IMG/VR virus record: IMGVR_UViG_3300044998_001400
Location: 1 to 23,311 of that record
Origin: a virus
Strand: one strand, 5' to 3'
Length of the DNA: 23,311 nucleotides
Part shown: one piece after another, positions 3,024 to 21,720 of the stretch
How positions within the stretch are numbered: the stretch's first letter is position 1
Layout of the letters: each line of letters begins with the position of its first letter
The notes under the pieces: generated by a model
Database searches by the model: none
What the model was told of the DNA's origin: nothing
What the model saw: only the letters and a program-made list of their open reading frames with translations
Program-made: the position numbers and the translations under genes

Positions 3024-3025
3024 AT

Positions 3026-3400
3026 TTAAGCTAATTTATGTTCAACAACTTTTCCTAATGGAGTTTTGCCCGAAGAGTGATAACCTTCGGGAAAATCGCT
3101 ATTTTCACGTTTAATTAAAATCTCCATTCTCATTAATCCTGATGGAAATGACGAGCTGTTTTCGCGTTTAATTAAAATGTAATATTCTCCCGGATTTGAA
3201 CCCGTGTTTATGTCCTCAAAACCATCTTCTTCCTCCTTTGAAAATTTGGCTACTTCCGTGTCGTTTACGGTTAATAGTACCTTTATGTTTTCTCCATTAT
3301 CAATTATAATTGGAGCCCCACTTTTGTCTTTTAGTTTTAAAACTATCTTCTTGTCCTCGCCTTTATAAATGCAAGTTTTACTGGAGTTTGCTGTAATCAT
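3026..3400 (-). CDS. BppU-like small baseplate/fibre-connector candidate
   Basis: 124 residues with an Ig-like pattern: an opening 'IYKGEDKKIVLKLKDKSGAP', a middle strand 'IKVLLTVNDTEVAKF', and 'GEYYILIKRENS', which resembles the N-terminal domain of BppU-type baseplate upper proteins that hold receptor-binding proteins. The segment LIKRENS is present twice (about residues 77-83 and 95-101), each followed by a Phe-Pro, a short internal duplication also visible in the DNA. It sits two bases upstream of the tail fibre and two bases after the tail-terminator-like gene. A role in mounting the fibre is inferred from position and fold; the similarity is weak. Confidence 0.45.
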   Translation of the reverse strand: MITANSSKTCIYKGEDKKIVLKLKDKSGAPIIIDNGENIKVLLTVNDTEVAKFSKEEEDGFEDINTGSNPGEYYILIKRENSSSFPSGLMRMEILIKRENSDFPEGYHSSGKTPLGKVVEHKLA

Positions 3401-3402
3401 AT

Positions 3403-3912
3403 TTATTGCTGATTTATAAAATTTGTTATTATTTCTTGTTCAGGATTAGCCTCTATGTATTTATTCATCATTTCAATATCAGTTAAACGGCATTTAAATT
3501 GAATTACAGTAACTTTTTCCGCGTTTCCGGCATGGTCGAATATTGTACCTATTCGGCTGATACTGCCAAATCCCACACCCGAAAAACCGTGTAACTTTTT
3601 ACAAACTTCGTCAACCGTACTTAAATGTTCGAGAGCTTTATTAATTATGTGGTTTGGCTGGTTGTTGTGACTTTCTTCTATAACCGGTTCACTAACTATG
3701 TGGATGTTAAAGTTAATTACTGCAGCTTGTTTTTTATTAGCAAGGCTTTGCCACGCCATTTGTTCAAACTCCAAGAATACTGCAGGTCTTAAAAAAACAT
3801 TATGGTCATTATCCGGGTCTTCAATGTATTGACCTGCAAATAGGTCAATGTGCTTAATTGAAGAGTTTTTTAGCCTCTCAACAATTTGAAGGTATAATCC
3901 TGCTAAAATCAT
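3403..3912 (-). CDS. Tail terminator / gp37-like head-tail connector candidate
   Basis: 169 residues: an N-terminal helix (LAGLYLQIVERLKNSSI), then 'IDLFAGQY...FLRPAVFLEFEQMAW', a long strand pair, a helix (INKALEHLSTVDEVCKKLHG), and a final strand 'VTVIQFKCRLTDIEM'. A Pro-Ala-Val-Phe-hydrophobic-Glu-Phe segment after an N-terminal helix is typical of tail terminator/joining proteins (Mu gp37/DUF1834-like, gpU-like folds). It overlaps the gpG-like gene by four bases (ATGA-type coupling), which matches the usual order of portal, morphogenesis protein, and joining protein in Mu-like phages. The exact family is uncertain. Confidence 0.5.
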   Translation of the reverse strand: MILAGLYLQIVERLKNSSIKHIDLFAGQYIEDPDNDHNVFLRPAVFLEFEQMAWQSLANKKQAAVINFNIHIVSEPVIEESHNNQPNHIINKALEHLSTVDEVCKKLHGFSGVGFGSISRIGTIFDHAGNAEKVTVIQFKCRLTDIEMMNKYIEANPEQEIITNFINQQ

Positions 3913-4397
3913 TCTTTAATTTTTTTAAATATGTTGTCTAAATCTGTCTCAATTCGAGTATTTATCCTGTTAATTAAAGCAGGAGTAGTTATCATAAATG
4001 GCCGTTTAGGTATATTGGCGTTTCTATAATGCTCTTTTACTTTTTTTCCTCTAACTTTTATTCGGCCTTTAAATCCCTCGTTATGGGCTTGTGCATACGG
4101 AACAGAAGTTACTGCTCTTGCGCTTCTATAATCAGGTTTTTTTCTAATGTCGCGCTTTAGCCTGCCTGATTTTACTAATATTGCTCTGCCTTTACCTTTA
4201 TTTATTTTTCTTGGTTGCCAATTAATCAATTCTCCGCTATTTCCAATGTACCCCTGTCTTCTGAAGTTTTCTTTAAAATCATTAACTGCTATTGTGCTAA
4301 TAATATCGGGCAGCTTTTGGCGAAAGCTCCAATATTCTTTATTAAGTTTATGAAAAGGGTGCTTAAATTGTGTCATTTTTTGTATATTTGCATTCAC
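3909..4397 (-). CDS. gpG-like virion morphogenesis protein (Phage_tail_S type)
   Basis: 162 residues, very basic. Family hallmarks are in order: 'GELINWQPRKI' (W-x-P-R), 'ILVKSGRLKRDIRKKP' (L-x-x-S-G-x-L), 'VPYAQAHNEGF' (Y-A-x-x-H-N-x-G) and 'NIPKRPFMITT' (I-P-x-R-P-F). These match the phage virion morphogenesis family to which Mu gpG and P2 gpS belong, which acts in head-tail joining or tail completion. The start is at 4397 (MNANIQKMTQ...), but an in-frame ATG seven codons later is also possible. It follows the portal fusion after a 109-base gap, the largest in the leftward operon, and overlaps the next gene by four bases. Confidence 0.8.
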   Translation of the reverse strand: MNANIQKMTQFKHPFHKLNKEYWSFRQKLPDIISTIAVNDFKENFRRQGYIGNSGELINWQPRKINKGKGRAILVKSGRLKRDIRKKPDYRSARAVTSVPYAQAHNEGFKGRIKVRGKKVKEHYRNANIPKRPFMITTPALINRINTRIETDLDNIFKKIKE

Positions 4398-4506
4398 GAA
4401 CCTACTAAGCAGTTAGTTCAAAGGTCTCTAAAGTCCTGACAATAATTAGGAACGATTTATCTTCCTACAATATCCTGACGTAAGAGCAGGGGGATTTTAA
4501 GAGGCC
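4398..4506 (-). other. 109-base non-coding gap with hairpin potential inside the leftward operon
   Basis: All other junctions in this operon overlap or are two to a few bases long. Read leftward, the gap has TAGGAA ... TTCCTA pairing with an 8-9 base loop, flanked by two direct copies of GTCAGGA, and further on ACTAA-CTGC-TTAGT before the gpG start. There is no T-run, so it does not look like a terminator. It may set the level of downstream genes by RNA structure or an internal promoter; no clear -33/-7 pair was found on the leftward strand. Confidence 0.35.
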
Positions 4507-6930
4507 TTATTTTTTTATCAAGACTCCTTTTCTATCCACGTTTTTTTCGTTTGAACTATACCACGTTTTAATAATTAATTTTCCATCAATTATATCTACA
4601 GGAACAATCATATACCCATCTTTGTAATATTTAATATAGTTATAATGAAATTTTTCACCTTTTTGGTTTAGCCATACTTCATCTGCATTTAGAAGGGTTG
4701 AGTTTATGTTTTCAAAAATCTTATCTCTTCCTATTTCAATATATTTTTGTGACAAATGCTCTAATAAAGTCTTTTTGTGCAGCAATAATGTTTTTCCTGA
4801 ATGATCGGTATATGTTTTTATTCCATCTTTAGCGGTTTTATCAAACTCTTGAATAACAGATTCCCTTGTGGCTGTTACGTTTTTTGGAATTTCACTTAAT
4901 TGAGCCTTTATAATTTTATCAGCAGATTCCATCTTGGCGCTTTTCCAATCAAAATCGTTTAAATTTTGCCCCAAATAAGCCTTGTTTAACTCAAATATTT
5001 GCTTTGTTTCGCCCCTGTTTACCGCAAATCCTGACTTCTCCATTCTCTTATATTCTTCACCTAATAAGGCTTTAGCTGTATTGCCGTCAATAACGTTGGT
5101 TGAGTCAATTTCTGAAGGTCGCAATTGAATCATCTCACATCTGCATCCAAATCCATTTGGTGGATAAATACTCCTCCAAGAAGTATCGTTGAATTTGAAT
5201 ATTTTACCGTCTAAGGCTCGATGAGAATTTCTTACTCTATCATCGCCAACAGTAACATATTTAAGATAAGGATAAATATTAGCCTGGGCCTTCTGTTCAT
5301 TCCAACGTGCTGCATTTTGAGCCGTTGCATGGGCTAAGTTATACTCCGTTTGAAGATAATTTACATTGTATTTTCCTAATATCCGACTTGCCTGCTCTTT
5401 AAACTCGTTAAAGTTGCTGCTGATTCTGACGGCATTATTAAGCTCAACAATTTCAGAAATGGTTTTGTCAAATCCAAAGCGGTTAATATTTAGCTCCATC
5501 ATAATCTGAGCCATATAATCAGGACGATTGTAGTCGGTTTCAACACCTCCAAACCCTTCAAGCATTGCTTTTCTAAGCTGAGATATCGTATTTTGGTATT
5601 TTACTACTTCATAGCTATTTGATTTAGGGTTGTTATATAGTTCAAATAGCCAATCTTCTTCTTCAGATGAAAGTTTAATATCTGTGCTAAGGGTTAAATT
5701 ATATGGATTTATAGGGCAGCATGTATCATCATGCTGTGCACTAAACTTTTTTTCGCCCTCGCCTCCATCGGGTTGAGGCAATGCAACTGCAGAAGGTTTT
5801 CCATCGGGCATAGGAACACCGTATTTTTCATAAAAATATACAGGATCAATATTTACTTTAGACGCTACCTTTAAGTCAATTTCAATTTGCTTTTCTAAAG
5901 GTAGCTCATTTGTTAGGTTGAATTTAAACTTGCCATTTTCAAGGCCTGAATAACCTAAGTCTATAAGCTTATACTTTAACTCCCAGTTTAAAAAGTATTC
6001 AAGCCATAGGATATCGCTCATTGTAATTTCATCCTCTACATCCTTGTGTACCTCTGATTGGCTTCGAGAACTTCCGTTGTCGGTTGTCATCGTTTGGCCT
6101 AAGAATAGCTTGCTTATTTCTTCATTACATGTTTTAATTAAGTCTTGAAATATCTGACTCTGCCCGGTTCCGCCAGCCTCTTTTATTTCAATCGAACTGC
6201 CTTTCGGTATTACAGCATAGCCAGCTCCACCCATTTTTGATAGCGCTTCGTCTAATAGCTGTCTTGACTTTGCATCAAAAGGATCATATTCGCCAACGCG
6301 GAAGGGCATTCCAAATAATTCGGCAAATTGTGCCCAATCGCCAAACCCTCCTCTCTTATAAATCACATATTGAGCTGCCGTCATTAATAAACCATAATCT
6401 TTTTTACCTCCAACAGAAATTAATCGCTTGCTATATAAAGGGTCGGTTTCATAATTAATCCCATTGCTTTCGTTGTATGCATCTAATGCAACCAATCCAA
6501 TTTCTGGCTTAACGTTTATTCGAGGAATTAAAACCGCCTTGTCGATTAAATCTATGCCCGGTATTAGTTCGATTAATGAATGCCCCCAAATAATTGACTC
6601 CATTGCATGTTTCTTGAAATCAAAGAACCAAGGTGTTTCAGTAATCAAAACTCTCGCGTTTTCTGCCACGCTTTCGTTTTCGCTAACAAACACAACGGGC
6701 TTGTTGCTTACGTTATTTATTCGCTTGTTGATTATTGCTTGAAGATGTCCGTCAAGCAATACATTGTCGTAAAGCTCATATAGTTGTTTTCTTCTTGGAT
6801 TGTTTGGATTTCGAGCAATATCAATAGCTCTTTTCCAAGAAGAAATATCTTGCGGATTTAACGTTATGCTTGCGACCTTAATCTCTGTAATAAGAGGAGA
6901 GGGATACTGTTTTCCAATTTTGCTATTCAT
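4507..6930 (-). CDS. Portal (DUF935) + Mu F-like minor head + C-terminal PBECR-type nuclease domain fusion
   Basis: 807 residues, much longer than a portal of the Mu gp29 type (about 500). Residues 1 to about 390 are portal, with the hallmark 'LGQTMTTDNGSSRSQSEVHK' at 277-296. Residues about 440-605 are a Mu F-like minor head domain (Mu gp30 type) with 'VGDDRVRNSHRALDGKIF' at 561-578 and 'PPNGFGCRCEMIQL' at 590-603. The last 120 or so residues, with 'TYTDHSGKTLLLHKK', 'LLNADEVWLNQKGEKFHYNY', 'IKTWYSS' and a terminal R-KGVLIKK, look like the PBECR class (phage Barnase-EndoU-ColicinE5/D-RelE-like nuclease), which is known to be attached to Mu F-like proteins. Portal rings hold 12 subunits, so every copy would carry the extra domains. 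The start overlaps the gp36-like stop (ATGA). Confidence 0.85.
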   Translation of the reverse strand: MNSKIGKQYPSPLITEIKVASITLNPQDISSWKRAIDIARNPNNPRRKQLYELYDNVLLDGHLQAIINKRINNVSNKPVVFVSENESVAENARVLITETPWFFDFKKHAMESIIWGHSLIELIPGIDLIDKAVLIPRINVKPEIGLVALDAYNESNGINYETDPLYSKRLISVGGKKDYGLLMTAAQYVIYKRGGFGDWAQFAELFGMPFRVGEYDPFDAKSRQLLDEALSKMGGAGYAVIPKGSSIEIKEAGGTGQSQIFQDLIKTCNEEISKLFLGQTMTTDNGSSRSQSEVHKDVEDEITMSDILWLEYFLNWELKYKLIDLGYSGLENGKFKFNLTNELPLEKQIEIDLKVASKVNIDPVYFYEKYGVPMPDGKPSAVALPQPDGGEGEKKFSAQHDDTCCPINPYNLTLSTDIKLSSEEEDWLFELYNNPKSNSYEVVKYQNTISQLRKAMLEGFGGVETDYNRPDYMAQIMMELNINRFGFDKTISEIVELNNAVRISSNFNEFKEQASRILGKYNVNYLQTEYNLAHATAQNAARWNEQKAQANIYPYLKYVTVGDDRVRNSHRALDGKIFKFNDTSWRSIYPPNGFGCRCEMIQLRPSEIDSTNVIDGNTAKALLGEEYKRMEKSGFAVNRGETKQIFELNKAYLGQNLNDFDWKSAKMESADKIIKAQLSEIPKNVTATRESVIQEFDKTAKDGIKTYTDHSGKTLLLHKKTLLEHLSQKYIEIGRDKIFENINSTLLNADEVWLNQKGEKFHYNYIKYYKDGYMIVPVDIIDGKLIIKTWYSSNEKNVDRKGVLIKK

Positions 6931-7337
6931 AAATGATTATTTCTTTTAGGATTACTTCCGTATAATATGTAATTCTTTTCTCCGCCTTGCATTAATGGAA
7001 GGTCGGGATTTATAATTCCGTTGTTTACTTTGTTAAGCCAATCAAGCGCCTGTTCATAGCGGGTAATTCGGTGTTCAGGAATTTTGCGAGGGTTAATTAG
7101 GCTGTGCAGGTGATAAATGGTCATGTCTTTTACATACATAAGAACAATTAAACTTCTATCATTGCCGGTTTTATTAAATATTTCATCAATATCATATCTA
7201 TTAGTTAGATATGATTTGATCTCCTCAATAGCGGTGTTTGTTGCAGATTCTAAAATGTCATCATCAAATTCAGTAATAGCATCTAAATATCGCTCTCTGA
7301 TGGTTGTGCCAAAATCTTCTTTTGTTATAAAGCTCAT
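6927..7337 (-). CDS. Mu gp36-like (DUF1320) head completion protein
   Basis: 136 residues with the DUF1320 pattern: N-terminal 'FITKEDFGTTIRERYLDAIT', helical 'AIEEIKSYLTNRYDIDEIF', 'RSLIVLMYVKDMTIYHLHSL', 'RYEQALDWLNKVNNGIINPD' and a C-terminal 'LYGSNPKRNNHL'. Mu gp36-type proteins are head-tail connector/head completion factors attached near the portal. It overlaps both neighbours by four bases (large terminase upstream, portal fusion downstream), so translation is probably coupled. Its place between terminase and portal is typical of Mu-like phages. Confidence 0.85.
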   Translation of the reverse strand: MSFITKEDFGTTIRERYLDAITEFDDDILESATNTAIEEIKSYLTNRYDIDEIFNKTGNDRSLIVLMYVKDMTIYHLHSLINPRKIPEHRITRYEQALDWLNKVNNGIINPDLPLMQGGEKNYILYGSNPKRNNHL

Positions 7338-8836
7338 AGTTTATGCTTGTTTATGGATTTAGAACCAATTAGTATGTCATGGTTAAACTTCAAATTTTCA
7401 TTAAGTATGTAAAAAGCACCTTCGGTAGCATCGGGGCCGTCTTTTTTGGTTTTAACGCCCGGTTCAAAATTTAGAAATTGCTCTACAAGTTCTTTCATGT
7501 GAGGATTATTTTCCTCATCTTCGTTAAACACTACATTTCCACGCTCAAAGTGTCCTGAAATAGATTCTATTCTGCTGTCTTTATCAGGTTTCTTTCGCTT
7601 GTCTCCAGTAAGCGACAAGGGGTACTTCTTTTTACCATAATCTTTAAAATCTGAATAAAGGAGATCTTGGAGGAATACTTCTTCCATCACAAATCTTGCG
7701 GTTGTGTTTTTGCGTTTTAAATAAGCGTCTATTTCATATCCCCACTCAATCATTTCTGTAATTGAAGCTTGACCGCAAAAGGCTTTGATTATGTAATATT
7801 TCCCGTCCCTAATTCCGGCCAATATCCAAGCTTTAGTGTCCGAAGCGTTTGTTTTCTTAAATCCGGGGTCTAAGTATGCCACTTTAAATGGCATTTTAGC
7901 TATGTCGGGAACTTTTCCAAAGACAATGTCTTTCTTTTTGAACACCTTTCCTTCAGAAATAGGATTATTGAAATATTCTCGCTGCGAAAGACGATATCCC
8001 ATTTTTGAAATCATGTACTGACATTCTTGTAAAGAAAATCGTTCTTTCCACGATGGCTGCCCTTGTTTGTCGAGTATATTTATTTGCTCAAAATCATCAG
8101 CAACATTTATGCTCCTTTTAACCAACGAGTCTTTTGCGATGATGTTCCCAACTATTATAAATCTCTTTGCGCCTTCAATGCTTAAACACCCAAATAGCGC
8201 ACCTATTAACCAGTCCCATGCATTATCCAATCTCTTAGGATTCCGGCATAGTTCGTCATCGTCAATATCATCGCACAAGATATAGTCTGGTCGCGCTTCT
8301 TCATTTCTACTTCCCCTTGGATTTTGACCGGAACCAATTGCTCTAAAGCTACAGCCGTCAGCAGTTATAAATTTTCCATCCTCCCAATTGCCTCTCCCTT
8401 TTTGTATGCCAAAGTCATTAATTAGCCTTTGATTGCTTTCTAATTGTATTTTTAAAGGCCTCAGCAATTCTATTGCGTTATCTTCGCTGTAGCTTACAAG
8501 CAGCATATTTTTAAGCTCTCCCTTCATTTTGAGAAAAAGCGGAAGCATTACACCTGATGTAACCGACTTAGCATGGTCTCTGCTCCATGCTCTTGTTATA
8601 AATATTCTATTATTTTCAACAGTTTTTTTTGCAAATCTTTTATGAAATTGCGCAAAAGGGCTTGTTGTATATTGCGGAAAATAATAGGTACAAAAAGCTT
8701 CAAAATCGGATAATAAATGAGCAATTCTCTTCTGTTTATCAAGAGCATTTTCGTTGCTATCAACAGAAGTAGATTTTATTAAATTCTTCTTGAAAGAATC
8801 CCATTTTAAAAGAGCTGTCCTGTCTTTTACCCTCAT
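7334..8836 (-). CDS. terL: Terminase large subunit
   Basis: 500 residues. The ATPase half has a Walker A-like 'RAWSRDHAKS' at 82-91 (an unusual loop lacking the normal glycine), a Walker B 'YILCDDID' at 185-192, and a coupling-type 'IIVGN' at 227-231. The nuclease half has the acidic residues of the RNase H-like fold: 'YLDPGFK' at 321-327, 'FVMEEVF' at 382-388 and 'KKDGPDATEGA' at 464-474. It is the motor that pumps DNA through the portal and cuts it. It overlaps the small subunit and the gp36-like gene by four bases each. Length and motif order are normal for the family. Confidence 0.92.
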   Translation of the reverse strand: MRVKDRTALLKWDSFKKNLIKSTSVDSNENALDKQKRIAHLLSDFEAFCTYYFPQYTTSPFAQFHKRFAKKTVENNRIFITRAWSRDHAKSVTSGVMLPLFLKMKGELKNMLLVSYSEDNAIELLRPLKIQLESNQRLINDFGIQKGRGNWEDGKFITADGCSFRAIGSGQNPRGSRNEEARPDYILCDDIDDDELCRNPKRLDNAWDWLIGALFGCLSIEGAKRFIIVGNIIAKDSLVKRSINVADDFEQINILDKQGQPSWKERFSLQECQYMISKMGYRLSQREYFNNPISEGKVFKKKDIVFGKVPDIAKMPFKVAYLDPGFKKTNASDTKAWILAGIRDGKYYIIKAFCGQASITEMIEWGYEIDAYLKRKNTTARFVMEEVFLQDLLYSDFKDYGKKKYPLSLTGDKRKKPDKDSRIESISGHFERGNVVFNEDEENNPHMKELVEQFLNFEPGVKTKKDGPDATEGAFYILNENLKFNHDILIGSKSINKHKL

Positions 8837-9276
8837 ATTTTACTTTTGATATACCCGTCCATCAAATTGTTTATTTCTTGTGCCTTTTTCAAATCAATCG
8901 GCCTTAGCCATTCGAGAAATGGCATAAATGCATTAATAGTATCAGCTATTCCAGCATCGTTTTCTAAATTTTTGGCAGCAGCAGACAATTTATTTAAGAT
9001 GTCCGCTTCAGCAGAAGATGGGAATCTTTTGCCTTCTTCTCGATTTTTAATTACATCGGTTAGTTCGTTTATTTGCTGGTAAATTCGCTTTAATTGCTCA
9101 GGTTTTGTAATAACCGTTGCGGCTTTTCTTTCTTCCCACTTTCCTTCTTCTTTCCATTTCCCAATTGTTTTTTCCGTAACACCAACACGTGCAGCTATTT
9201 CTTTTTGTGTTAATCCCTCTGAAATAAATAATAATTCAGCCCAATTTAGAAGGTCTTTTTTTCTTGTTGTTCCCAT
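8833..9276 (-). CDS. Terminase small subunit, HTH DNA-binding
   Basis: 147 residues from ATG 9276 (MGTTRKKDLLNWAELLFISE); an in-frame ATG at 9297 would add MFINFAF, but a promoter-like CAACTTTG lies between the two, so the inner start is preferred. A clear helix-turn-helix is at about 20-47 ('GLTQKEIAARVGVTEKTIGK', then WKEEGKW), followed by a helical oligomerisation region ('QLKRIYQQINELTDVIKNRE') and a C-terminal segment that probably contacts the large subunit. It recognises the packaging site on concatemeric or integrated DNA. It is the first gene of the leftward operon and is translationally coupled to terL by a four-base overlap. Confidence 0.8.
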   Translation of the reverse strand: MGTTRKKDLLNWAELLFISEGLTQKEIAARVGVTEKTIGKWKEEGKWEERKAATVITKPEQLKRIYQQINELTDVIKNREEGKRFPSSAEADILNKLSAAAKNLENDAGIADTINAFMPFLEWLRPIDLKKAQEINNLMDGYIKSKI

Positions 9277-9424
9277 GAATGCAAAGTTGATAAACATTGA
9301 TTATTAATTAAAAAGGTCTTTTAGCTTAATCTTATTATTTAATATAAATAATATAATTAATTGATATGCAGCTAAAAAAGAATTTTAATCAATGTTTAAA
9401 ATATTTCAATTTTGTGCCATCGAT
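9277..9424. promoter_or_regulatory. Divergent, mirror-symmetric promoter/operator region for both structural operons
   Basis: The two structural operons start here in opposite directions. Perfect 13-bp inverted repeats TAAACATTGATTA (9291-9303) and TAATCAATGTTTA (9386-9398) are placed about a shared centre with an inner pair TTTTAGCT (9319-9326) and AGCTAAAA (9370-9377). Outside them lie CAACTTTG (leftward strand, 9288-9281) and CAATTTTG (9407-9414), each one mismatch from the Bacteroidota -7 box TAnnTTTG, just before ATG 9276 and ATG 9425. So each strand shows the same ordered blocks: AGCTAAAA, TAATCAATGTTTA, CAAyTTTG, ATG. Paired activation by one late regulator is inferred. Confidence 0.7.
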
Positions 9425-10390
9425 ATGTCAAAGCAAAAATTCATATTATCCGACCAGTCCCTTAATCGTAAGGGCTCTATTGTAATTACAGCAGGTATTG
9501 ACACTTCCAATTTTATGAAGAATCCGATTATGCTTTTAAATCATAATCACGATGTTGTATTAGGTAAGTGGAATCATGTTGCTGTTGATGGAGATAAATT
9601 GGTGGGAGAGCCTGAATTTGATATGGATGATGCGGAGGCTGCAAAATGGGCCAATAAGGTTAATAAGGGTTATGTTAATTCGGCAAGTATTGCTATTCAA
9701 ATTTTAGACCTTGAAATTGCCGAACAAGAAGGAATGCTTTGTCTTGTAGTTAATAAGTCTGAACTAAAAGAGGTTAGTTTGGTCTCTGTACCTGCCAATG
9801 CAAATGCTGTTAAGCTTTTCGATAAATCAGGGGTGGAAGTTACAGAGGAATCAATCGAATTAATGTTAAGCGACTATAAATCAAATAAAAAACAAAACAA
9901 TATGTCAAAATTGAAATTATTGGCACTTGCCTTATCGCTTGCTGATACAGCGACAGAAGATGAAGTAATTTCAGCAGTTAATAATCTGAAAAAAGACAAG
10001 TCGGATTTGGAGGGAAAGGTTAAAGAACTATCTGATAAGGTGCAGAAGATGAACGAAGATAATGAAGCAAAACAGAAACTGGCAATTAAGCAGCTTTTAG
10101 ATGACGCTCAGAAACAAGGGAAATTTTCAGCGGACAAACGCTCTGTTTACGAAGAGCTTTGCAGTAAGGACTTTGAGTCTACTAAAATAGTTATTGACGG
10201 CCTTCAGCCTTACAAGCCTTTATCTGCCCAAATGGGAGATAAATCGGCTGCTGCTGCTCGTGAAGATTGGGACTTTGGAAAGTGGCAAAAGGAAGACCCT
10301 GCCGGGCTTCAATTAATGTCTGAAAAAGACCCTGAAGGTTTTAAAAGCCTTAAAGAGGCATATATCATTAAGTTGCGTGATAAAAAGTAA
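9425..10390 (+). CDS. Prohead protease with C-terminal scaffold (Mu I-like / HK97-type)
   Basis: 321 residues from ATG 9425 (MSKQKFILSDQSLN...); an ATG at 9392 is in frame but lies within the operator region. The N-terminal half has the serine-protease signature of prohead proteases: 'PIMLLNHNHD' with histidines at 40 and 42, and 'ELKEVSLVSVPANANA' with Ser 118. The C-terminal half has a coiled coil at about 185-225 and an acidic/basic tail, as in Mu I and other protease-scaffold fusions. It cleaves scaffold and probably capsid during head maturation. An internal start at 9902 may give scaffold alone. It is the first gene of the rightward operon. Confidence 0.85.
   Translation: MSKQKFILSDQSLNRKGSIVITAGIDTSNFMKNPIMLLNHNHDVVLGKWNHVAVDGDKLVGEPEFDMDDAEAAKWANKVNKGYVNSASIAIQILDLEIAEQEGMLCLVVNKSELKEVSLVSVPANANAVKLFDKSGVEVTEESIELMLSDYKSNKKQNNMSKLKLLALALSLADTATEDEVISAVNNLKKDKSDLEGKVKELSDKVQKMNEDNEAKQKLAIKQLLDDAQKQGKFSADKRSVYEELCSKDFESTKIVIDGLQPYKPLSAQMGDKSAAAAREDWDFGKWQKEDPAGLQLMSEKDPEGFKSLKEAYIIKLRDKK
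9902..10390 (+). CDS. Possible nested scaffold protein (internal start in protease gene)
   Basis: An in-frame ATG at 9902 follows an A-rich stretch (about 20 bases before it, aaataaaaaacaaaacaat), the kind of leader that precedes other starts here, and the protein begins afresh with MSKLKLLALALSLADTATED. It would yield a 162-residue coiled-coil scaffold lacking the protease, as Mu Z and lambda Nu3 are made from within I and C. Translation from this site is inferred; the sequence shows only the ATG, its context and the domain boundary. Confidence 0.45.
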   Translation: MSKLKLLALALSLADTATEDEVISAVNNLKKDKSDLEGKVKELSDKVQKMNEDNEAKQKLAIKQLLDDAQKQGKFSADKRSVYEELCSKDFESTKIVIDGLQPYKPLSAQMGDKSAAAAREDWDFGKWQKEDPAGLQLMSEKDPEGFKSLKEAYIIKLRDKK

Positions 10391-10393
10391 TAG

Positions 10394-10621
10394 ATGTCGC
10401 ACAGTGGAGAGATTGCTGCAGCTATAACAGGGGCTATTTCTGTAAAGGTTGCAAAAGTTCTTGGACTTATTAGCCTCTCAATGCTTTACGCGGTGATGGA
10501 GAGTTTCATAATTGGAGCAATCGGGGCCACGGGTGGATATTTAGCCAAGAAAACATTAGACTGCTTAGTAAAACTATATAAACAAAAACAACAAAAAAAA
10601 CATGAAAAAACAGTTCAGTAA
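10394..10621 (+). CDS. Small membrane protein upstream of capsid, unknown
   Basis: 75 residues: a hydrophobic stretch from about 19 to 48 (KVAKVLGLISLSMLYAVMES, then FIIGAIGATGGYL), long enough for one helix or a tight hairpin, followed by a strongly basic tail (KLYKQKQQKKHEK). That layout fits a small holin or an inner-membrane protein with a cytoplasmic tail. It starts three bases after the protease stop and overlaps the major capsid gene by 20 bases in another frame, so capsid translation may be coupled to it. A membrane gene between protease and capsid is not the usual order; its function is unknown. Confidence 0.55.
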   Translation: MSHSGEIAAAITGAISVKVAKVLGLISLSMLYAVMESFIIGAIGATGGYLAKKTLDCLVKLYKQKQQKKHEKTVQ

Positions 10622-11642
10622 ATTTTTTATGGGTGTGATTGCGGTTTCATTGGCAATAATTTCTTTGCCTGTCGCTGCTCTAAATTCTATCGTGCCAGCT
10701 CCTACTAATTATGGAGTTCAAATGAATGGCGTAGCGGTTGAAATTTGGGTTGATTACATAATGGGTAATCTTTTTAAAGATAATTCATTTGTGAATTTCT
10801 GTTACAATGAAAGCCAAAACGTACTTGGAGGCTCTGTGGTACATATTCCGCAGGCAGGAGCTAAACCTACGGTTGTTAAAAATAGAAACTCTTACCCGGC
10901 TACAGCGGTTAGAAGAACCGATACTGACATTACTTATCCATTGGATGTATATACAACTGACCCTACTCACATCCCTAAGGCTGAAACAATGGAGATATCT
11001 TACGATAAAATGGGTTCGGTTTTAGATGAACATTTAGAGTCGATGTCAGAAACGATTGCCGATCATCTTCTTTTTAGTTGGGCGCCAACAAGCAGTGCCA
11101 ATATATTGAGAACAACTGGTTCGGCTATTTTAGCTCACTTGCCGTCAGCTACGGGAAACAGAAAGAAGCTTGTTAAGGAAGATTTAAAACGAGCTCAATC
11201 GCTTATGAATAAACAAGGTATTGCTAAGGCTGATAGATATGCATTAATACCGGAAGACATGTATCAGCAATTAACAGAAGACTCTACATTAATGGCTCGT
11301 GACGGTGTTAATGGCGGTGAACTATCGCTTAAAGATGGAGTTGTGTTAAGACTGTATGGATTCAACATAATATCGAGAGCAACAACAGTAGCCTACACAA
11401 ATGCAGGTACACCGGTTCCAAAAGCACCGGGAGCAGCAGCAGCAGCAACAGATAATGATAGTGTGATTTGCTGGCAAAAAAATGCTGTTGCAAAAGCGCA
11501 AGGTACTGTTGAGTTTTTCGAGAATCAAAAAGACCCTCAATATTACGGAGACATCTACTCAATTTTGGTGAAAATGGGAGGTAGAAAACGTAGAGATTTA
11601 GGAGAAGGAGTGGTTGCGATAGTTCAGGATGCATCGGCATAA
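10602..11642 (+). CDS. Major capsid protein (HK97-fold candidate) with signal-peptide-like N-terminus
   Basis: 346 residues directly after the protease/scaffold gene, the standard site of the major capsid. Typical features: an N-terminal arm ('NGVAVEIWVDYIMGNLFKDN'), 'GGSVVHIPQAG', a long spine-helix region ('AETMEISYDKMGSVLDEHLE'), 'DRYALIPEDMYQQL' and a C-terminal 'SILVKMGGRKRRDLGEGVV'. The first 26 residues (MKKQFSKFFMGVIAVSLAII, then SLPVAA) have the n-, h- and c-regions of a Sec signal peptide with V-x-A at the cleavage site, which is strange for a cytoplasmic shell protein. A GCA/GCC-type tract encodes AAAAA near residue 277. Later in-frame ATGs (10629, 10722) could give shorter forms. 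Confidence 0.8.
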   Translation: MKKQFSKFFMGVIAVSLAIISLPVAALNSIVPAPTNYGVQMNGVAVEIWVDYIMGNLFKDNSFVNFCYNESQNVLGGSVVHIPQAGAKPTVVKNRNSYPATAVRRTDTDITYPLDVYTTDPTHIPKAETMEISYDKMGSVLDEHLESMSETIADHLLFSWAPTSSANILRTTGSAILAHLPSATGNRKKLVKEDLKRAQSLMNKQGIAKADRYALIPEDMYQQLTEDSTLMARDGVNGGELSLKDGVVLRLYGFNIISRATTVAYTNAGTPVPKAPGAAAAATDNDSVICWQKNAVAKAQGTVEFFENQKDPQYYGDIYSILVKMGGRKRRDLGEGVVAIVQDASA

Positions 11643-11709
11643 AAATAAAACACACCCCGACAGCCCCGAAGCGCCAAGCGTGTAGGGGCACAGGGTTAAA
11701 TTAGCGCTT
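11643..11709 (+). other. GC-rich gap after the capsid gene
   Basis: This 67-base spacer is strikingly richer in G and C than its surroundings. GCCCC at 11663-11667 can pair with GGGGC at 11685-11689, and AAGCGC (11669-11674) with GCGCTT (11704-11709) just before the next ATG. No T-run follows, so it is not a classical terminator; it may protect the capsid mRNA 3' end or limit read-through. Confidence 0.35.
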
Positions 11710-11976
11710 ATGAACAAAGAATTAGAAAACGAAATTAAAGCAGTATTTGAGGCAAACGATGTTGAAGTAGTGTTTGCAACAGAAGATGGGGTATGCTTTT
11801 TTAATGAGGCAACAGCAAGAGCAGAGGCTGCTCGAAAAAAACTATCTGAGCCTATTAGAGTTAAAAGAGACGATTTCTTAATAGCTGATAATTCTAAAAA
11901 GGCTGCTGAAGAAGAAGCTAAGAAAAAAGCTGCTGAAGAAAAAGCTGCAAAAGGCTCTCAGAAGAAAGGGAAGTAA
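11710..11976 (+). CDS. Small capsid-adjacent protein with Ala/Lys-rich tail
   Basis: 88 residues. The N-terminal half carries 'VVFATEDGVCFFNEATARAEAA', a pattern (hydrophobic-x-T-x-D-G-x-x-F-x-x-x-x-x-A-x-x-H/E-A) seen in small proteins encoded right after the major capsid in Mu-like and Bacteroidota phages. The C-terminal third is a charged run of Lys, Glu and Ala that would be a long single helix. It may be a minor head protein or decoration/assembly factor; no function is proven. It ends one base before the next start. Confidence 0.55.
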   Translation: MNKELENEIKAVFEANDVEVVFATEDGVCFFNEATARAEAARKKLSEPIRVKRDDFLIADNSKKAAEEEAKKKAAEEKAAKGSQKKGK

Positions 11977-11977
11977 A

Positions 11978-12388
11978 ATGAAGGTAACCTTGCATACAAT
12001 ACATGATTGTGGAGAGCAAACCCTCGGTTGCTTAACCGTAGTTAATGCTAATCGTGTTATTTTTTTATGCAAAAGCTTAGAACTGCCCGATAGAAACAAT
12101 AAGCAAGGAGTTAGTAGTATACCTGCAGGCACTTATTTGTGCAAATGGACGTACAGCAATACGTTTAAGCGTAATATGTATGAAGTTTTGGGTGTTGCCG
12201 GGCGCGCAGGTATCAGGATTCATTCTGCTAACTATGCTTCACAACTTAGAGGGTGTATTGCTCTTGGAGATTCAACAAAAGACTTGAATAAAGATGGTCT
12301 TTTAGATATTACACACTCAGGTAATACTGTCAAATCTTTTGAAGAATTAATGAAGGGCCAAGATTTTTATTTAGAAGTAAAAAGATAA
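11978..12388 (+). CDS. DUF5675-family protein, candidate lysis enzyme
   Basis: 136 residues with the DUF5675 landmarks: 'SLELPDRNNK', 'SSIPAGTYLCKW' at about 46-57 and 'GRAGIRIHSANYASQLRGCI' at about 75-94 followed by ALG. The His82...Asn85...Gly-Cys93 arrangement recalls the H...(S/N)...G-C motif of cysteine peptidases/transpeptidases of the YkuD kind, but homology to them is not established. Phage copies are often next to holin-like genes, as here, where the next ORF encodes a one-helix membrane protein. The likely role is peptidoglycan attack at lysis. It shares one base with the next gene (TAATG). Confidence 0.65.
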   Translation: MKVTLHTIHDCGEQTLGCLTVVNANRVIFLCKSLELPDRNNKQGVSSIPAGTYLCKWTYSNTFKRNMYEVLGVAGRAGIRIHSANYASQLRGCIALGDSTKDLNKDGLLDITHSGNTVKSFEELMKGQDFYLEVKR

Positions 12389-12651
12389 TGAACTTAATAA
12401 CCATATTTATGGGCATCGCAAAAAAAAACAAATTTAAGACACTTTTAAAATCTGTAGGTAATGGCATACTTGACAGCATTCCTGTGGTGTCTACAATTAA
12501 GAGTAATGTAGAATCTGATTTGGGAGGAAAAGGAAGAGTAGACTGGGTAAGATTATCAACTTCTGTTTTATTATTAGTTCTGCTTATCGCATTTGTATTT
12601 GGGAAAATATCCTTAGAGCAATTAGAATCATTAATTAAATTATTGAATTAA
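12388..12651 (+). CDS. One-helix membrane protein, holin-like candidate
   Basis: 87 residues. A basic, amphipathic N-terminal half (KKNKFKTLLKSVGNGILDSI) is followed by 'GGKGRVDWVRLS' and one strongly hydrophobic helix at about 55-72 (STSVLLLVLLIAFVFGK), then a short amphipathic end (LEQLESLIKLLN). It starts at an ATG sharing one base with the DUF5675 gene; an in-frame ATG lies seven codons on. Size, single helix and partner gene fit a holin or a lysis regulator, but a structural membrane-contacting role cannot be excluded. The next gene starts two bases later. Confidence 0.55.
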   Translation: MNLITIFMGIAKKNKFKTLLKSVGNGILDSIPVVSTIKSNVESDLGGKGRVDWVRLSTSVLLLVLLIAFVFGKISLEQLESLIKLLN

Positions 12652-12653
12652 TC

Positions 12654-13883
12654 ATGGCAAGACCGAGTGTTAACATATCTCAATCTAATGGCAATTTAGG
12701 CAGAATAGCACCTTTAGAAGATGGCATATCTGCAATTGTAGTATCAGGAGTAGCCGTATCCGGGCAATTTGCGCTTAATGACGTATTAGGCCCTTTCTTT
12801 AGCCTTGCGGATGCTGAAAATGTAGGCATAACAGAGGCGTACGATTCAACTAATACTACTGTTGCTCATAAGCATATCAAAGATTTTTACGATGCTGCCG
12901 GAAACGGTACAGAACTATATGTGATGGTTGTTGCTAAAACATTGGCTATGGCAGATGTTTGCGACAAAACATTGGATTACCTTTCAAAACTGCTTAGAAC
13001 AGCGCAAGGAAAGGTTAGGCTTGTTGCGGTTTGTAGAACTCCTCAAACAGGCTATACTCCAATGTATGCAAATCAATTGGATACTGACATCGTTTCAGCC
13101 ATAACAAAAGCTCAAGAATTATTTGAGGATGAATTTCTGAAACATAGACCAGTACAAATATTAATTGAAGCCCGCGATTTTCAAGGTAATATATCGTCTA
13201 TGCTTGATTTAAGAGACCCTGCCCTTGGTCCTAATGCTAATAGAGTAAGTCTTGTAATATCACAAGATGCCGACTATGCAGCAAATAACGCGTTTGCTTC
13301 TAAAATGGCATTTGCCGGCTATGTTTTAGGCAAATTAGCAGGAATCCCGGTGCAGCGTAACATAGGAAGAGTTAAATCAGGCGCTATTGGCATTACAAAT
13401 ATCGCCTTGTCAAATGGCGTAAACTATAACACCTTAACAGATACTCAGATTAACACACTTCACGATAAAGGCTACATATTTGCGCTCAAACATTCAGGCA
13501 AAGCAGGTTTTTTCTTTAATGATGACCCTACAGCGTGTCCTATTACAGATGATTATGCATTTATTGGCAGAGGAAGAGTGATGGACAAAGCGAGTAGAAT
13601 AACACGTCAGGTTTTCTTAAATGAGCTAAATGACGATGTAGAGCTTAATGAAGAAACGGGCAAGCTTGATGCTGCAGTCATTAAGAGTTATCAACAAAAG
13701 GTAGAAGACGAGATTAATCGTCAGATGACTTCACGCAGAGAGATTGTAAGAGTATCTTGTTTTGTTGACCCTGACCAAAACGTATTATCTACGGATAAAA
13801 TAGATACCGAAGTAAACATATTGCCAAAAGGCTATGCTAAAGAGATTAATTCTGTTTTGGCATACGAAAACCCTTTAGCGTAA
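12654..13883 (+). CDS. Tail sheath protein (DUF2586-type)
   Basis: 409 residues starting MARPSVNISQSNGNLGRIAP and continuing with 'DGISAIVVSGVAVSG', 'HIKDFYDAAGNGTELYVMVV', 'VRLVAVCRTPQTG', 'RPVQILIEARDFQG', a mid-section 'AGIPVQRNIGRVKSGAIGIT' and a C-terminal 'FVDPDQNVLSTDKIDTEVNI'. This is the pattern of the DUF2586 family, the contractile tail sheath of Bacteroidota phages, equivalent to Mu gpL. Hundreds of copies polymerise around the tube and contract at infection. It makes the phage a myovirus and is followed by the tube gene after 29 bases. Confidence 0.85.
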   Translation: MARPSVNISQSNGNLGRIAPLEDGISAIVVSGVAVSGQFALNDVLGPFFSLADAENVGITEAYDSTNTTVAHKHIKDFYDAAGNGTELYVMVVAKTLAMADVCDKTLDYLSKLLRTAQGKVRLVAVCRTPQTGYTPMYANQLDTDIVSAITKAQELFEDEFLKHRPVQILIEARDFQGNISSMLDLRDPALGPNANRVSLVISQDADYAANNAFASKMAFAGYVLGKLAGIPVQRNIGRVKSGAIGITNIALSNGVNYNTLTDTQINTLHDKGYIFALKHSGKAGFFFNDDPTACPITDDYAFIGRGRVMDKASRITRQVFLNELNDDVELNEETGKLDAAVIKSYQQKVEDEINRQMTSRREIVRVSCFVDPDQNVLSTDKIDTEVNILPKGYAKEINSVLAYENPLA

Positions 13884-13912
13884 TTATAAACCTTTTAAAT
13901 AGCATTTAAACG

Positions 13913-14332
13913 ATGATTAATGGTAATGAGTATGCATGGGAAGATATTAAAGTAGTACTTCCCGGAAGCACAAGGCCTCTTGATGGTGTTGTTGCTATTG
14001 AGTATTCTGAGAAAAAAGACCATATAAATATATATGGGCGCGGAGATAAGCCTGTGGCAATGGGAAGAGGCAAAAGAGAGTATTCAGGTAGTATCACTTT
14101 GCTTCAAAGTGAAGTGGAAGCCCTGCAGCGCACTCTTCCAAAAGGACGGAGTATAACTGATATTCCTGCTTTTTCAATCCCGGTTTCTTACCAGCCTGAA
14201 AATGGCCCATTAACTGTTGATATGCTTATTGCGGTTCGTTTTGGCGAGATAAAAAAGGGCATGAAAACAGGAGACCCAAATATGGAGATTGAACTTCCAC
14301 TTATAATTGGTGACATTCAATATAATGTTTAA
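13913..14332 (+). CDS. Tail tube protein
   Basis: 139 residues, beta-rich: 'YAWEDIKVVLPGSTRPLDGV', 'VAIEYSEKKDHINIYGRGDK', 'GRGKREYSGSITLLQSEVEA', 'FSIPVSYQPENG', and 'MEIELPLIIGDIQYNV'. The order of an early strand pair, the G-R-G-x-x-x-Y-x-G-S-I-T-L segment and a final strand matches small tail tube proteins of contractile phages. It lies exactly between sheath and tail assembly chaperone, the conserved place of the tube gene (Mu gpM position). It stacks as hexamers to form the DNA conduit inside the sheath. Confidence 0.82.
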   Translation: MINGNEYAWEDIKVVLPGSTRPLDGVVAIEYSEKKDHINIYGRGDKPVAMGRGKREYSGSITLLQSEVEALQRTLPKGRSITDIPAFSIPVSYQPENGPLTVDMLIAVRFGEIKKGMKTGDPNMEIELPLIIGDIQYNV

Positions 14333-14352
14333 CTATTCTAACAACTTAAAAA

Positions 14353-14661
14353 ATGGACGAGTACAAAAGACCATCTAAATCGGAAATTGATTCTTTAAAG
14401 AAGAAGCATGGCGAAATTTTTCTTATTGCAGTTGATGACAAGGAATGCTTACTTCGCAAACCAACAATGCGAGATATTGAGGCAGCAATGGCCGTAAGAA
14501 CAAAAAAGGGGAACCCAATTGAATTCTCAAAAACCATCGTCCAAAACTGCTGGATTACAGGGCACGAAGTGATGAGAACTAACGATGACCTTTACTTAGC
14601 CGTTTGCCAAAAGGTAGATGAATTGGTAGAGATTAAGGAGGCCTCCATCGCAAAGCTATAA
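14353..14661 (+). CDS. Tail assembly chaperone, short form (gpG-type)
   Basis: 102 residues, MDEYKRPSKSEIDSLKKKHG then ...EIFLIAVDDKECLLRKPTMR and so on, a charged mostly helical protein ending ASIAKL. Position between tube and tape measure is that of the lambda G/GT chaperone. The stop TAA at 14659-14661 is bypassed by -1 frameshifting in a fraction of ribosomes to give a longer G-T form (see the slip site and downstream frame). The chaperone coats tape measure during tail building and is absent from the finished virion. The family is assigned chiefly by position and recoding signal. Confidence 0.8.
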   Translation: MDEYKRPSKSEIDSLKKKHGEIFLIAVDDKECLLRKPTMRDIEAAMAVRTKKGNPIEFSKTIVQNCWITGHEVMRTNDDLYLAVCQKVDELVEIKEASIAKL

Positions 14662-14701
14662 AAGAGGAGCGGGATTATTTGAATAATCCCGCATCCTCTT
14701 T
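14652..14701 (+). promoter_or_regulatory. -1 ribosomal frameshift signal: A AAG slip site and strong hairpin
   Basis: In the zero frame the sequence reads GCA AAG CTA TAA; the Lys codon AAG (14653-14655) can slip back to AAA (14652-14654). Five bases later begins a long stem: AAAGAGGA (14661-14668) plus GCGGGATTATT (14669-14679), pairing with AATAATCCCGC (14682-14692) and TCCTCTTT (14694-14701), 19 bp with a single bulged A at 14693. The innermost pairs probably open into a loop. Spacing and strength are those of known stimulators of tetrameric A-AAG shifts. The -1 frame has an earlier stop at 14634, so the shift must fall between 14637 and 14661, which fits. Confidence 0.85.
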
Positions 14702-14843
14702 GGCAAGAATGTATGCACAAGTTCGATTTTATTATAAAATTCCAAATGCTGAAGACCTGCCGGATGAAAGGCTTATAAAATTATTTGCCGAGTTGCAATG
14801 GGTAAGGCAGGAAGAGGCCAAACACAACACGCCTGAGCAATGA
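14655..14843 (+). CDS. Tail assembly chaperone, frameshifted T part
   Basis: The -1 frame after the slip encodes 62 residues, AIKEERDYLNNPASSLARMY then AQVRFYYKIPNAEDLPDERL and on to a TGA at 14841-14843. It lacks an ATG until codon 19 (14709), yet the protein-like part starts earlier, which supports fusion rather than separate initiation. The fused protein would be about 163 residues: 101 from the short form and 62 from here. In lambda-like systems the T part recruits tape measure and tube subunits. The stop overlaps the tape-measure ATG (14840). Confidence 0.82.
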   Translation, partial: AIKEERDYLNNPASSLARMYAQVRFYYKIPNAEDLPDERLIKLFAELQWVRQEEAKHNTPEQ

Positions 14844-16684
14844 AAATGTCTGAGTGGGTATTAAAAATAAGTGCGCTTAACGAGAAAGTTCTTGATAAGC
14901 TTAGCTCATCTGCAGATAAAGTATCCGGGAAATTTTCAGGGCTTCAAGACAATTTAAACGGATTTCAAGATAAATATGGTGAAATAACGGGGCAAATTCC
15001 GGGAGTTGGTTCAGCCATGAACCTTTTAGTTAATCCTTATGTTGCTGCAGGAGCAGCAATTGCGGGTGTAACGGTAGGGCTTTATAAGGCTACTGATGCT
15101 GCGAAAGAATACAATAACACTTTTTTGGACATTAAAAATCTTAATCTTGATAAGTCAGAGGCCGAACTATCTCAATATTCAAATACGATAAAAGACCTTA
15201 GCCTAAAAAATGGGTTTAATCTAAACAATACCGCGGTTGCGTTTTATGATGTGCAATCAGCTACAGGTCTTTATGGGAAATCGGTTGGAGACTTGGTCGA
15301 AAAGGTTGGTAACTTCGCTATTGCTACTAAAGCAGATTTTAATACTACAATAAACGCATCGACAAAAGCCATGAAAGCGTTTAATTTTGGTGTTGAAGAT
15401 ATGGATAAATATTTGGCAAGTAATGCAAAAACTGTACAGGTAGGGATAACTACATTTAAAGAGCTTGCCGAAGTTCAGACAGAATATGCCGGAGCAGCAG
15501 CGTCTGCAAATCAAAATTTTGATACAGCCAATAAAATATTTGCAGCCTTTACATCCATTGCAAAAGATAGTAGAATAGCAGCGACTATGACTAAAACCGC
15601 TTTTGCTGGTTTTGGAGAAGAAAACACTATTAAAGGGCTTAAATCAATAGGGGTTAATTTGTTTGATGCCAAAGGACAAATGCGTAGCATGGATGAAGTT
15701 ATCAAAGAGTTAATTCCGAAATTTTCGAAAATGAATGACGCGGAGTTTAACAAACTAAAAAATGATATTGGAGGGCCAGAGGGTTTAAGGAATTTGATGA
15801 ATTTGTTGAAAACTTCAGGAGACGAAGTTTTAAGAACATTTGATGCATTTGACAATTCTGCATTTGATGCTAAGAAAGCATTAGCCAACGCAAAGGGAGA
15901 TGCTAAAGTGATGGGAGGGATTTTAAAAAATCAATGGGAAAACATAATGGTAAGAATTGGAGAGAAAATATTGCCGTTTGTCATCACCGGGCTACAAAGT
16001 GCTTCTGAATATGGCCAAAAGATATTTGACTGGTTTACCAAAATGTGGCAACGAAGCGAGCTGTTTAGAGATGTTTTAATGTTTTCAGTTAATCAACTCA
16101 AACTGTCTTATAATTTATTAAAAGAGTTTTATCTAAACATTGAGGCTGTTTTTACAGGAATTGGCAAACTAATTGACTATGTGTGGAGATTATTGGGCGG
16201 AGAAGGTTCTTTGATATCACGCGCCTTTAATTGGCTTGACAGGTTTTATACAAGGGCAAAAGGAATATTTATGAATATTGTGTCTATTGGCAAAACTGCA
16301 GCAGAATTAATGAGAGATATATTGTCAGGTAATTTTGATAATGTAGGCGCGAGATTCGACTTATTGAAGGAGAAAATTAAAAACATTGGGAAAGTACCTG
16401 TTGAAGTAAAATTAGAAGAGCAATTATCAGATGCTCAATCGGGGTCTTCTGCCACCGGTGCCAAAGACACTAAAGGAGGATTAAACGATACGATTAAGAG
16501 CGGACTGACAGATATTTCTGGCGGAGGGAAATCTGTAAGAAATGTTACTGTCAATATACAGTCGCTCGTTAAAGAGTTAAATGTACATACAACCTCGGTT
16601 AAGGAAGGGAGCTCTGAAATTAAGCGATTGGTTGAAGAAACCATTTTAAGGGCTGTTCAAGGAGCAGAATTAGGATTAGCATAA
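14840..16684 (+). CDS. Tail tape measure protein (TP901-type)
   Basis: 614 residues, short for the family. An N-terminal coiled/helical part leads to a hydrophobic segment at about 60-85 ('NPYVAAGAAIAGVTVGLYKA'), then the TP901-type core at about 90-330 with 'KNGFNLNNTAVAFYDVQSAT', 'TKADFNTTINASTKAMKAFN' and 'QVGITTFKELAEVQTEYAGA', and hydrophobic helices towards 440-500. Tape measure length sets tail length at about 0.15 nm per residue, so roughly 90 nm here (inference from that known ratio). The start at 14840 overlaps the chaperone stop (ATGA); an ATG at 14846 is an alternative. It shares one base with the next gene. Confidence 0.85.
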   Translation: MKMSEWVLKISALNEKVLDKLSSSADKVSGKFSGLQDNLNGFQDKYGEITGQIPGVGSAMNLLVNPYVAAGAAIAGVTVGLYKATDAAKEYNNTFLDIKNLNLDKSEAELSQYSNTIKDLSLKNGFNLNNTAVAFYDVQSATGLYGKSVGDLVEKVGNFAIATKADFNTTINASTKAMKAFNFGVEDMDKYLASNAKTVQVGITTFKELAEVQTEYAGAAASANQNFDTANKIFAAFTSIAKDSRIAATMTKTAFAGFGEENTIKGLKSIGVNLFDAKGQMRSMDEVIKELIPKFSKMNDAEFNKLKNDIGGPEGLRNLMNLLKTSGDEVLRTFDAFDNSAFDAKKALANAKGDAKVMGGILKNQWENIMVRIGEKILPFVITGLQSASEYGQKIFDWFTKMWQRSELFRDVLMFSVNQLKLSYNLLKEFYLNIEAVFTGIGKLIDYVWRLLGGEGSLISRAFNWLDRFYTRAKGIFMNIVSIGKTAAELMRDILSGNFDNVGARFDLLKEKIKNIGKVPVEVKLEEQLSDAQSGSSATGAKDTKGGLNDTIKSGLTDISGGGKSVRNVTVNIQSLVKELNVHTTSVKEGSSEIKRLVEETILRAVQGAELGLA

Positions 16685-17250
16685 TGGCAAGAGAGATAAA
16701 CATATTAGAAGTATATCGCAATGTTTTTGGGTATATCGGCCAGCCATATTTCACCGCAAATCCCAAAAGTTATGTGCCTTTAATTAATTTAGATAAAAAC
16801 GAAGCAGTTGATATAACTGAGCGTCAATATTCATTGTTAGGAACACCTATTTTTCTTCCTTGTAAACTTGAGGGAATAGAACTGCCCAATGAACCTATTA
16901 TCCAAATTAGCGGAAGCAAAACAATAATAAAAACGCAAATAGATGGGCAGGACGGAACATTTAAAGAGTTATATTCTTTAAACGATTATCAGGTTACAAT
17001 AAGAGGTGTTGTTACAAACGAAGAGAATGATGATTATCCGGAAGATATTATTAGAAAAATAAGAACTATTTGTGAATTAAAGAAGAGTGTAACTATTATA
17101 AATGCATTAACCTCTTTGTTTGATATTAATAAAATCGCAATTGAATCATTTTCTTTTCCTGCGGTAGAAGGACAAATATCTATGCAGGCGTATGAGATTA
17201 ACGCTTCTTCGGATAGAGATTTTGAACTTAAAATAAAAACAGCTGGATAG
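16684..17250 (+). CDS. DUF6046-type tail/baseplate protein
   Basis: 188 residues, beginning MAREINILEVYRNVFGYIGQ. Features: 'LINLDKNEAVDITERQYSLL', 'GTPIFLPCKLEGIELPNEPI', 'QISGSKTIIKTQIDGQDGTF', 'KELYSLNDYQVTIRGVV' and 'YPEDIIRKIRTICELKKSVT'. This matches the DUF6046 family of Bacteroidota contractile-tail phages, placed between tape measure and hub where other phages have a LysM-type tube initiator or hub-adaptor protein. The S-G-x-K-x-x-x-K-T segment resembles that of baseplate adaptors. The precise role is not proven. Confidence 0.7.
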   Translation: MAREINILEVYRNVFGYIGQPYFTANPKSYVPLINLDKNEAVDITERQYSLLGTPIFLPCKLEGIELPNEPIIQISGSKTIIKTQIDGQDGTFKELYSLNDYQVTIRGVVTNEENDDYPEDIIRKIRTICELKKSVTIINALTSLFDINKIAIESFSFPAVEGQISMQAYEINASSDRDFELKIKTAG

Positions 17251-17258
17251 TGAGAGAG

Positions 17259-19260: not shown

Positions 19261-19267
19261 ATAGCGC

Positions 19268-21709: not shown

Positions 21710-21720
21710 AAACAGGTAAG

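Follow-up and report, generated by a model that had tools for sequence, protein, structure and literature searches.

The window analysed here is a whole viral record of 23.3 kb (23,311 nucleotides, 36% GC). Its genes for Portal_Mu, Mu F-like, Mu gp36-like and Mu-I-like protease proteins and for a contractile tail sheath mark it as part of a Mu-like phage; it is a fragment of such a phage of Bacteroidota, and the early region is missing. Two late operons diverge from the site under study, which lies between a leftward terminase small subunit gene and a rightward prohead protease gene (Table 1). The window's terminase small subunit shares 35-48% identity with those of many relatives, which are phages and prophages of Bacteroidota, including hankyphage p00, Porphyromonas gingivalis phages and Elizabethkingia TCUEAP3. 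Because longer open reading frames, from 9297 for the terminase and from 9392 for the protease, each begin upstream of the gene's own -7 box, we set the two starts at the ATGs at 9276 and 9425, respectively.

Table 1. Promoter elements, repeats and genes around the divergent site of the window
Feature	Position	Strand	Remark
-7 box CAACTTTG, leftward promoter	9282..9289	-	predicted start ~9277, leader ~1 nt
-7 box CAATTTTG, rightward promoter	9407..9414	+	predicted start ~9419, leader ~6 nt
-33 element TTTT, leftward promoter	9310..9313	-	exactly 20 bp from -7 box
-33 element TTTT, rightward promoter	9383..9386	+	exactly 20 bp from -7 box
13-bp arm TAATCAATGTTTA, near-palindromic (TAAnCAnTGnTTA), within -33/-7 spacer	9291..9303	-	1 nt from -7 box
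13-bp arm TAATCAATGTTTA, within -33/-7 spacer	9386..9398	+	8 nt from -7 box
AGCTAAAA, putative outer operator, AGCT centre 9324.5	9319..9326	-	35.5 bp from -7 box
AGCTAAAA, putative outer operator, AGCT centre 9371.5	9370..9377	+	35.5 bp from -7 box
Central operator zone between both -33 elements, dyad midpoint 9348	9314..9382	.	AT-rich
Terminase small subunit gene, leftward late operon gene 1	8833..9276	-	ORF; phrog_4151 E=1e-43
Leftward late operon, remainder: large terminase, Mu gp36-like, portal + Mu F (+ PBECR2), tail completion, collagen-like fibre	1611..8836	-	
Prohead protease / Mu I-like gene, rightward late operon gene 1	9425..10390	+	Peptidase_S78 2e-11; phrog_80 / phrog_11321
Rightward late operon, remainder: capsid, DUF5675 protein, tail sheath, tape measure, baseplate + fibre genes	10602..22521	+	

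In the leftward operon, a single 807-aa protein (4507-6930, minus strand) fuses the portal and Mu F domains and carries a C-terminal PBECR2 (Barnase-EndoU-ColicinE5/D-RelE-like nuclease) domain, unlike in hankyphage, where portal and F are two separate genes. This operon ends with the collagen-like tail fibre gene (1611-3023, minus strand). The major capsid ORF (10602-11642, plus strand) has a signal-peptide-like N-terminus when read from its first ATG (MKKQFSKFFMGVIAVSLAIISLPVAALN); either the true start lies downstream or this segment is unusual. At the right end, a D12-class adenine methyltransferase gene (22523-23311, plus strand; MethyltransfD12, E=4e-29) runs to the window edge.

A sequence-only reading of this site had proposed that it is one mirror-image late promoter that drives both structural operons, with an 8-mer, a 13-mer, CAAyTTTG and ATG following each other in this order on both strands about one centre. 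All of these elements are present, exactly and where that reading had placed them. The single centre holds for the 8-mers and the -7 boxes, which are both centred at 9348, with AGCTAAAA 37 nt from the box on both strands, but not for the 13-mers, which are centred at 9344.5 and are therefore 7 bp out of register. The core of the site is TTTT-N20-CAAyTTTG on both strands, with 117 bp from -7 box to -7 box. Because the TTTT lies exactly 20 bp before CAAyTTTG on both strands, we assign the core promoters of the window to the Bacteroidetes sigma-A type; when all window positions were scored for a -33/-7 pair, these two promoters took ranks 5 and 6.

The inverted-repeat score was first run without composition weights, and in that form AT-rich palindromes dominated in the window and scored high in shuffles too. 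Because the unweighted score favoured such palindromes, we adopted register-based tests. For an 8-bp run that keeps register with the two -7 boxes, P is 0.009, and of 400 dinucleotide shuffles of the region, 2 gave an exact inverted repeat of at least 13 bp. The sequence-only reading had also suggested looking for the repeat in the rest of the phage; elsewhere in the window the 13-mer has 34 matches with at most 3 mismatches, against 26 +/- 5 expected, which is no excess over chance. The window's operators are weak, consisting of the AGCTAAAA pair only, and no clear copy of a middle operator was seen in the central zone.

We found the divergent arrangement of terminase and protease in 107 of 107 relatives and at 141 of 141 loci in two later scans, some of these loci being on contigs already used; near-copies among them were removed for the spacing test only. 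The best NANNTTTG box was picked on each side independently, without use of the distance between the two. Such boxes are far above control on both sides, and TTT(G) is enriched exactly at a spacer of 20, again on both sides. The box-to-box distances from these separate picks peak at 115-118, 94-96 and 73-74 bp, the first peak alone holding 39 of 98 spacers (null mean 3, maximum 9). Joint scoring of -33 and -7 placed 65 of the 98 phages into three classes, with 7, 17 and 41 phages at 73, 94 and 115 bp (null 3.3, 3.8 and 3.5; chance total about 10). When all settings were frozen and near-copies removed, 43 of 57 new spacers fell into the same classes (3, 26 and 14, respectively; null mean 6.5, largest 15). 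In light of the result on new spacers we consider two classes firm, 94 and 115, and the third, 73, weak, the last of these amounting to 10 of 155 spacers against about 5.5 by chance.

The box distance is thus quantised at about 94, at 115-118 and perhaps at 73 bp, that is, in steps of 21 bp, or two helical turns. About one third of the relatives lie outside these classes; some of the box calls are surely wrong, and some spacers hold inserts. On the large terminase tree the spacing class switches at least 14 times, a figure that box errors inflate, and the classes therefore do not reflect one inherited distance. At the -12 position, the terminase-side box has C instead of T in 34 of 65 relatives, about half, as it does in the window; this possibly weakens the core promoter.

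Some of the relatives' spacers have peculiarities of their own. In a human-gut phage contig (MT838750) the divergent terminase/protease spacer, which is outside the distance classes, contains a tRNA-Met gene (L038:1380-1454, minus strand). The protease-terminase spacers of two Mucilaginibacter loci (L025, L026) are packed with short GGTTGTGGGTTG-like repeats and their complements, and the box distance is not interpretable there. In L027, L028 and other relatives, the first gene of the rightward operon encodes an S78-like or a ClpP-like protease (with a different N-terminal domain); the promoter geometry is unchanged.

Between the promoters, the relatives carry palindromic sequence in a regular arrangement. 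Dyads centred on the midpoint, or 10.5 or 21 bp to either side of it, are enriched in the 115 class; in the 94 class the enriched centres are the midpoint and +-10.5 bp, and both patterns were repeated in the new spacers. The +-21 bp dyads of the relatives fall at about -48 of both promoters, directly upstream of the -33 element. Self-similarity of the spacers peaks at a 21-bp step; individual spacers have three palindromes or repeats 21 bp apart (L002, L003, L008, L094, L247) or two (L063, L073, L083, L187, L204). Counted inwards from the boxes, the first 16 bp or so show no mirror symmetry, whereas it is strong over the -33 element (20-24 bp) and again at 30 bp and beyond. In these terms AGCTAAAA, 30-37 bp from the box, is inside the symmetric outer operator zone, and TAATCAATGTTTA is outside the symmetric zone. 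The operator sequences themselves vary among phages, with cores such as TGCAAC..TTGCA recurring. The check set by the sequence-only reading, whether relatives keep the repeats, thus has a split outcome: their architecture is kept and their sequence is not.

A PWM of the operator was run on eight phages whose operators are strong (G001, G002, G003, G005, G007, G008, G013, G019), and within 20-40 kb of sequence it scored above chance at the divergent site only. We used the PWM in place of an ungapped 15-mer search, which was too noisy. The same search in these phages did not find several late promoters sharing the operator within a genome. Since the operators are confined to one site, a dedicated late regulator is favoured.

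The 13-mer does not fit this pattern. The sequence-only reading had taken it for an activator site, yet it sits between -33 and -7, and because no class of relatives shows mirror symmetry there, we find this role unsupported. We also rejected the 13-mer as a conserved operator: it is out of register, the relatives have no symmetry at its position, and an exact inverted pair of it occurs in none of the IMG/VR contigs searched.

Bacteroidetes promoters have the -7 box at -12 to -5 (PMC9723704), and by this rule we predicted transcription starts 5 nt after the box. The leaders predicted in this way are 1 nt for the terminase mRNA (ATG 9276) and 6 nt for the protease mRNA (ATG 9425). In 8 of 65 relatives (e.g. 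L009, L011, L045, L046) the first in-frame start codon of the terminase is exactly 4 nt after the box, which predicts a start on the first base of the codon and would make the terminase mRNA fully leaderless. The near-leaderless mRNAs that had been proposed for the site are plausible on both counts.

We next consider which protein might read the array. By analogy with Mu, a homologue of C or Mor had been a natural candidate, but PF08765 was above its cut-off in 0 of 22 phage records, with two weak matches confined to the helix-turn-helix (HTH); a recognisable Mu C/Mor is improbable as the activator. Comparison of 19 near-complete or large records pointed to two families of small HTH proteins, FA (about 74 aa) and FB (about 105 aa; phrog_17154), whose genes in most cases lie towards the end of the early operon. 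FA was found in 9 of the 19 records and FB in 9, without overlap, and 50 further records (one already counted) gave 18 with FA and 9 with FB, again without overlap. In the pooled 68 records there are thus 26 with FA, 18 with FB and 0 with both (hypergeometric P ~3e-5). We regard these two mutually exclusive families as candidates for the activator; the FB protein of hankyphage, whose terminase-side -7 box reads CAATTTTG, is encoded by ORF 10177-10446 of BK010646. Structure prediction makes both of them helical HTH-type proteins; Foldseek with the predicted structures gave no match at E <= 0.001, the MuA I-beta HTH being among the weak matches and Mor not among the matches listed, and neither family has a credible match in Pfam. 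We do not claim that FA and FB are one family, the hhalign probability being only 28%.

The 114-120 bp class includes 15 of 17 FB phages and 4 of 25 FA phages, which mostly have shorter distances (Fisher 4e-6), an association that is confounded by kinship (sign test P 0.25). With its distance of 117 bp and its outer inverted arms, the window agrees with the FB group. In the window, from which the early region is missing, no FA or FB protein was found, and an ORF at 790-1026 was discarded as its regulator (E = 1.1, not significant).

Altogether, the idea at the core of the sequence-only reading, one mirror-image late promoter for both structural operons, receives strong support from comparison with relatives: in these the divergent layout is universal, the -33/-7 pairs are conserved at a quantised distance, the symmetry is in register with both promoters, and strong operators are confined to the site. 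We think it probable that late control in this Mu-like Bacteroidota phage is exerted from this one region, where an HTH protein bound to the array activates transcription in both directions. In such a switch, two host sigma-A promoters of the form TTT(G)-N20-NANNTTTG would stand back to back at a fixed distance, with a small palindromic operator array in 21-bp steps (two helical turns) between them. These steps would bring the outermost operator on each side just upstream of the -33 element, centred near -48; in the window, the outer operators would be the two AGCTAAAA sites. A dimeric HTH protein of the phage, made at the end of the early operon, would bind the array and recruit or activate RNA polymerase both ways from the one site, so that the leftward head and packaging operon and the rightward protease, capsid and tail operon would start together. 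Activity of the promoters and their late timing are inferred, as are an activating rather than a repressing role for the binder and its kinship with FA or FB.

A different protein could bind the same array. If the promoters are real and the array is the target of a CI-like lysogeny repressor, both late promoters would be off in the prophage, as with lambda CI. An array of one to three operators set two turns apart and flanked by divergent promoters does resemble lambda OR, and most phage genes go up when the CI-like repressor of hankyphage is silenced (PMC12135933). However, the early promoter is where one would expect a lysogeny repressor to act, and the eight strong-operator phages have no copies clearly above chance elsewhere, including the early/repressor region where it is present; moreover, the operators are upstream of -33 and do not cover the core promoter. 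We therefore judge a repressor of this kind to be unlikely. It is similarly improbable that two regulators share the site, with AGCTAAAA as the activator site and the palindromic 13-mer TAAnCAnTGnTTA as a repressor site over both core promoters that keeps them closed. The 13-mer is near-palindromic, lies between -33 and -7 on both strands in copies 95 bp (nine turns) apart, and forms a pair that chance seldom produces (the 2 of 400 shuffles above), but the lack of symmetry at -33/-7 in every class of relatives, the lack of an exact inverted pair in the IMG/VR contigs searched and the lack of a copy excess in the window all argue against such a repressor.

The repeats might also have nothing to do with transcription and be a pac-like binding site of the small terminase subunit, a protein that has a helix-turn-helix and whose sites are often close to terS in other phages. 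This is very improbable: transposable phages such as Mu package their DNA starting at the end of the genome, from which this site is about 17 kb away (on the L159 map), and the array keeps a strict register with two promoters that have N20 spacers. It is rather unlikely, finally, that the divergent promoters alone are real and the repeats of the window are chance matches in an AT-rich spacer. The 36% GC of the window, the chance levels of its repeats (0.009 for the in-register 8-mer, 2 in 400 for the 13-mer) and the high scores of AT-rich palindromes in shuffles would allow for it; the 117-bp distance, the N20 spacers and the position of AGCTAAAA, on the other hand, all match the pattern found independently in the relatives.

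Returning to the bidirectional activator switch, we see about an even chance that a single rule is shared by Mu-like phages across Bacteroidota. It would place the two promoters 52 + 21n bp apart, with n palindromic operators between them (2, 3, perhaps 1), and have them read by one of two mutually exclusive families of small HTH activators not assigned in Pfam, so that the whole virion programme hangs on one site. It looks as though docking sites for the control protein are gained or lost singly. The result is a natural series in which operator number varies in two-turn steps and promoter geometry stays constant. Because the architecture is fixed and countable and there are two candidate activator families, the proposal is directly testable, and the site offers a bidirectional Bacteroides promoter, one that a single small protein may be able to induce. 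Bacteroidota phages, including hankyphages, are widespread in the gut, and in the literature we found, late gene control has not been worked out for any of them; a search for late or divergent promoters of Bacteroides phages or Bacteroidetes transposable phages returned no description of this site.

Among known phages, hankyphage p00, the P. gingivalis Mu-like phages and Elizabethkingia TCUEAP3 have the same gene order and the same divergent site as the window. Neither for these nor for F. columnare fF4 does the literature we found describe the late promoter or its operators. For fF4, a mor-like ORF14 was proposed by HHpred (PMC7761591), and the hankyphage transcriptome study, in the portion available, shows repressor control and contains no mapping of the divergent late promoter (PMC12135933). 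The core promoters follow the Bacteroidetes sigma-ABfr promoter, which has TTTG at -33 and TAnnTTTG at -7 (PMC7366714, PMC9723704): the -33 TTT(G), the N20 spacer, NANNTTTG on both strands and the predicted start 5 nt past the box are the same. They differ from that consensus in that the first base of the box (-12) is often C, as in the window, where the -33 element is TTTT.

Lambda OR, with its three operators between divergent PR and PRM, likewise has a palindromic array at roughly two-turn spacing. In contrast to OR, the operators here occur at one site only in the strong-operator phages and not at early promoters, both promoters serve late genes, and the number of units varies. Another parallel to the proposed switch is offered by the late promoters of Mu (Plys, PI, PP and Pmom, which depend on C) and by Pm (which depends on Mor), PI being the promoter that drives the protease gene. 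As proposed here, these have a dyad-symmetric activator site just upstream of a -35-like element. The Mor site at Pm is centred at -43.5 (PMC4390567), and the C site is upstream of -35 (PMC4461284). In Mu the gene of the regulator is small and lies within the early operon or after it, much as we propose here. Unlike Mu, which has four separate late promoters, these phages have one bidirectional site; their leftward packaging operon is inverted relative to that of Mu, the host sigma-A -33/-7 elements are kept, no protein in the 22 records exceeds the Pfam cut-off for Mor, and the operators come in multiples of 21 bp.
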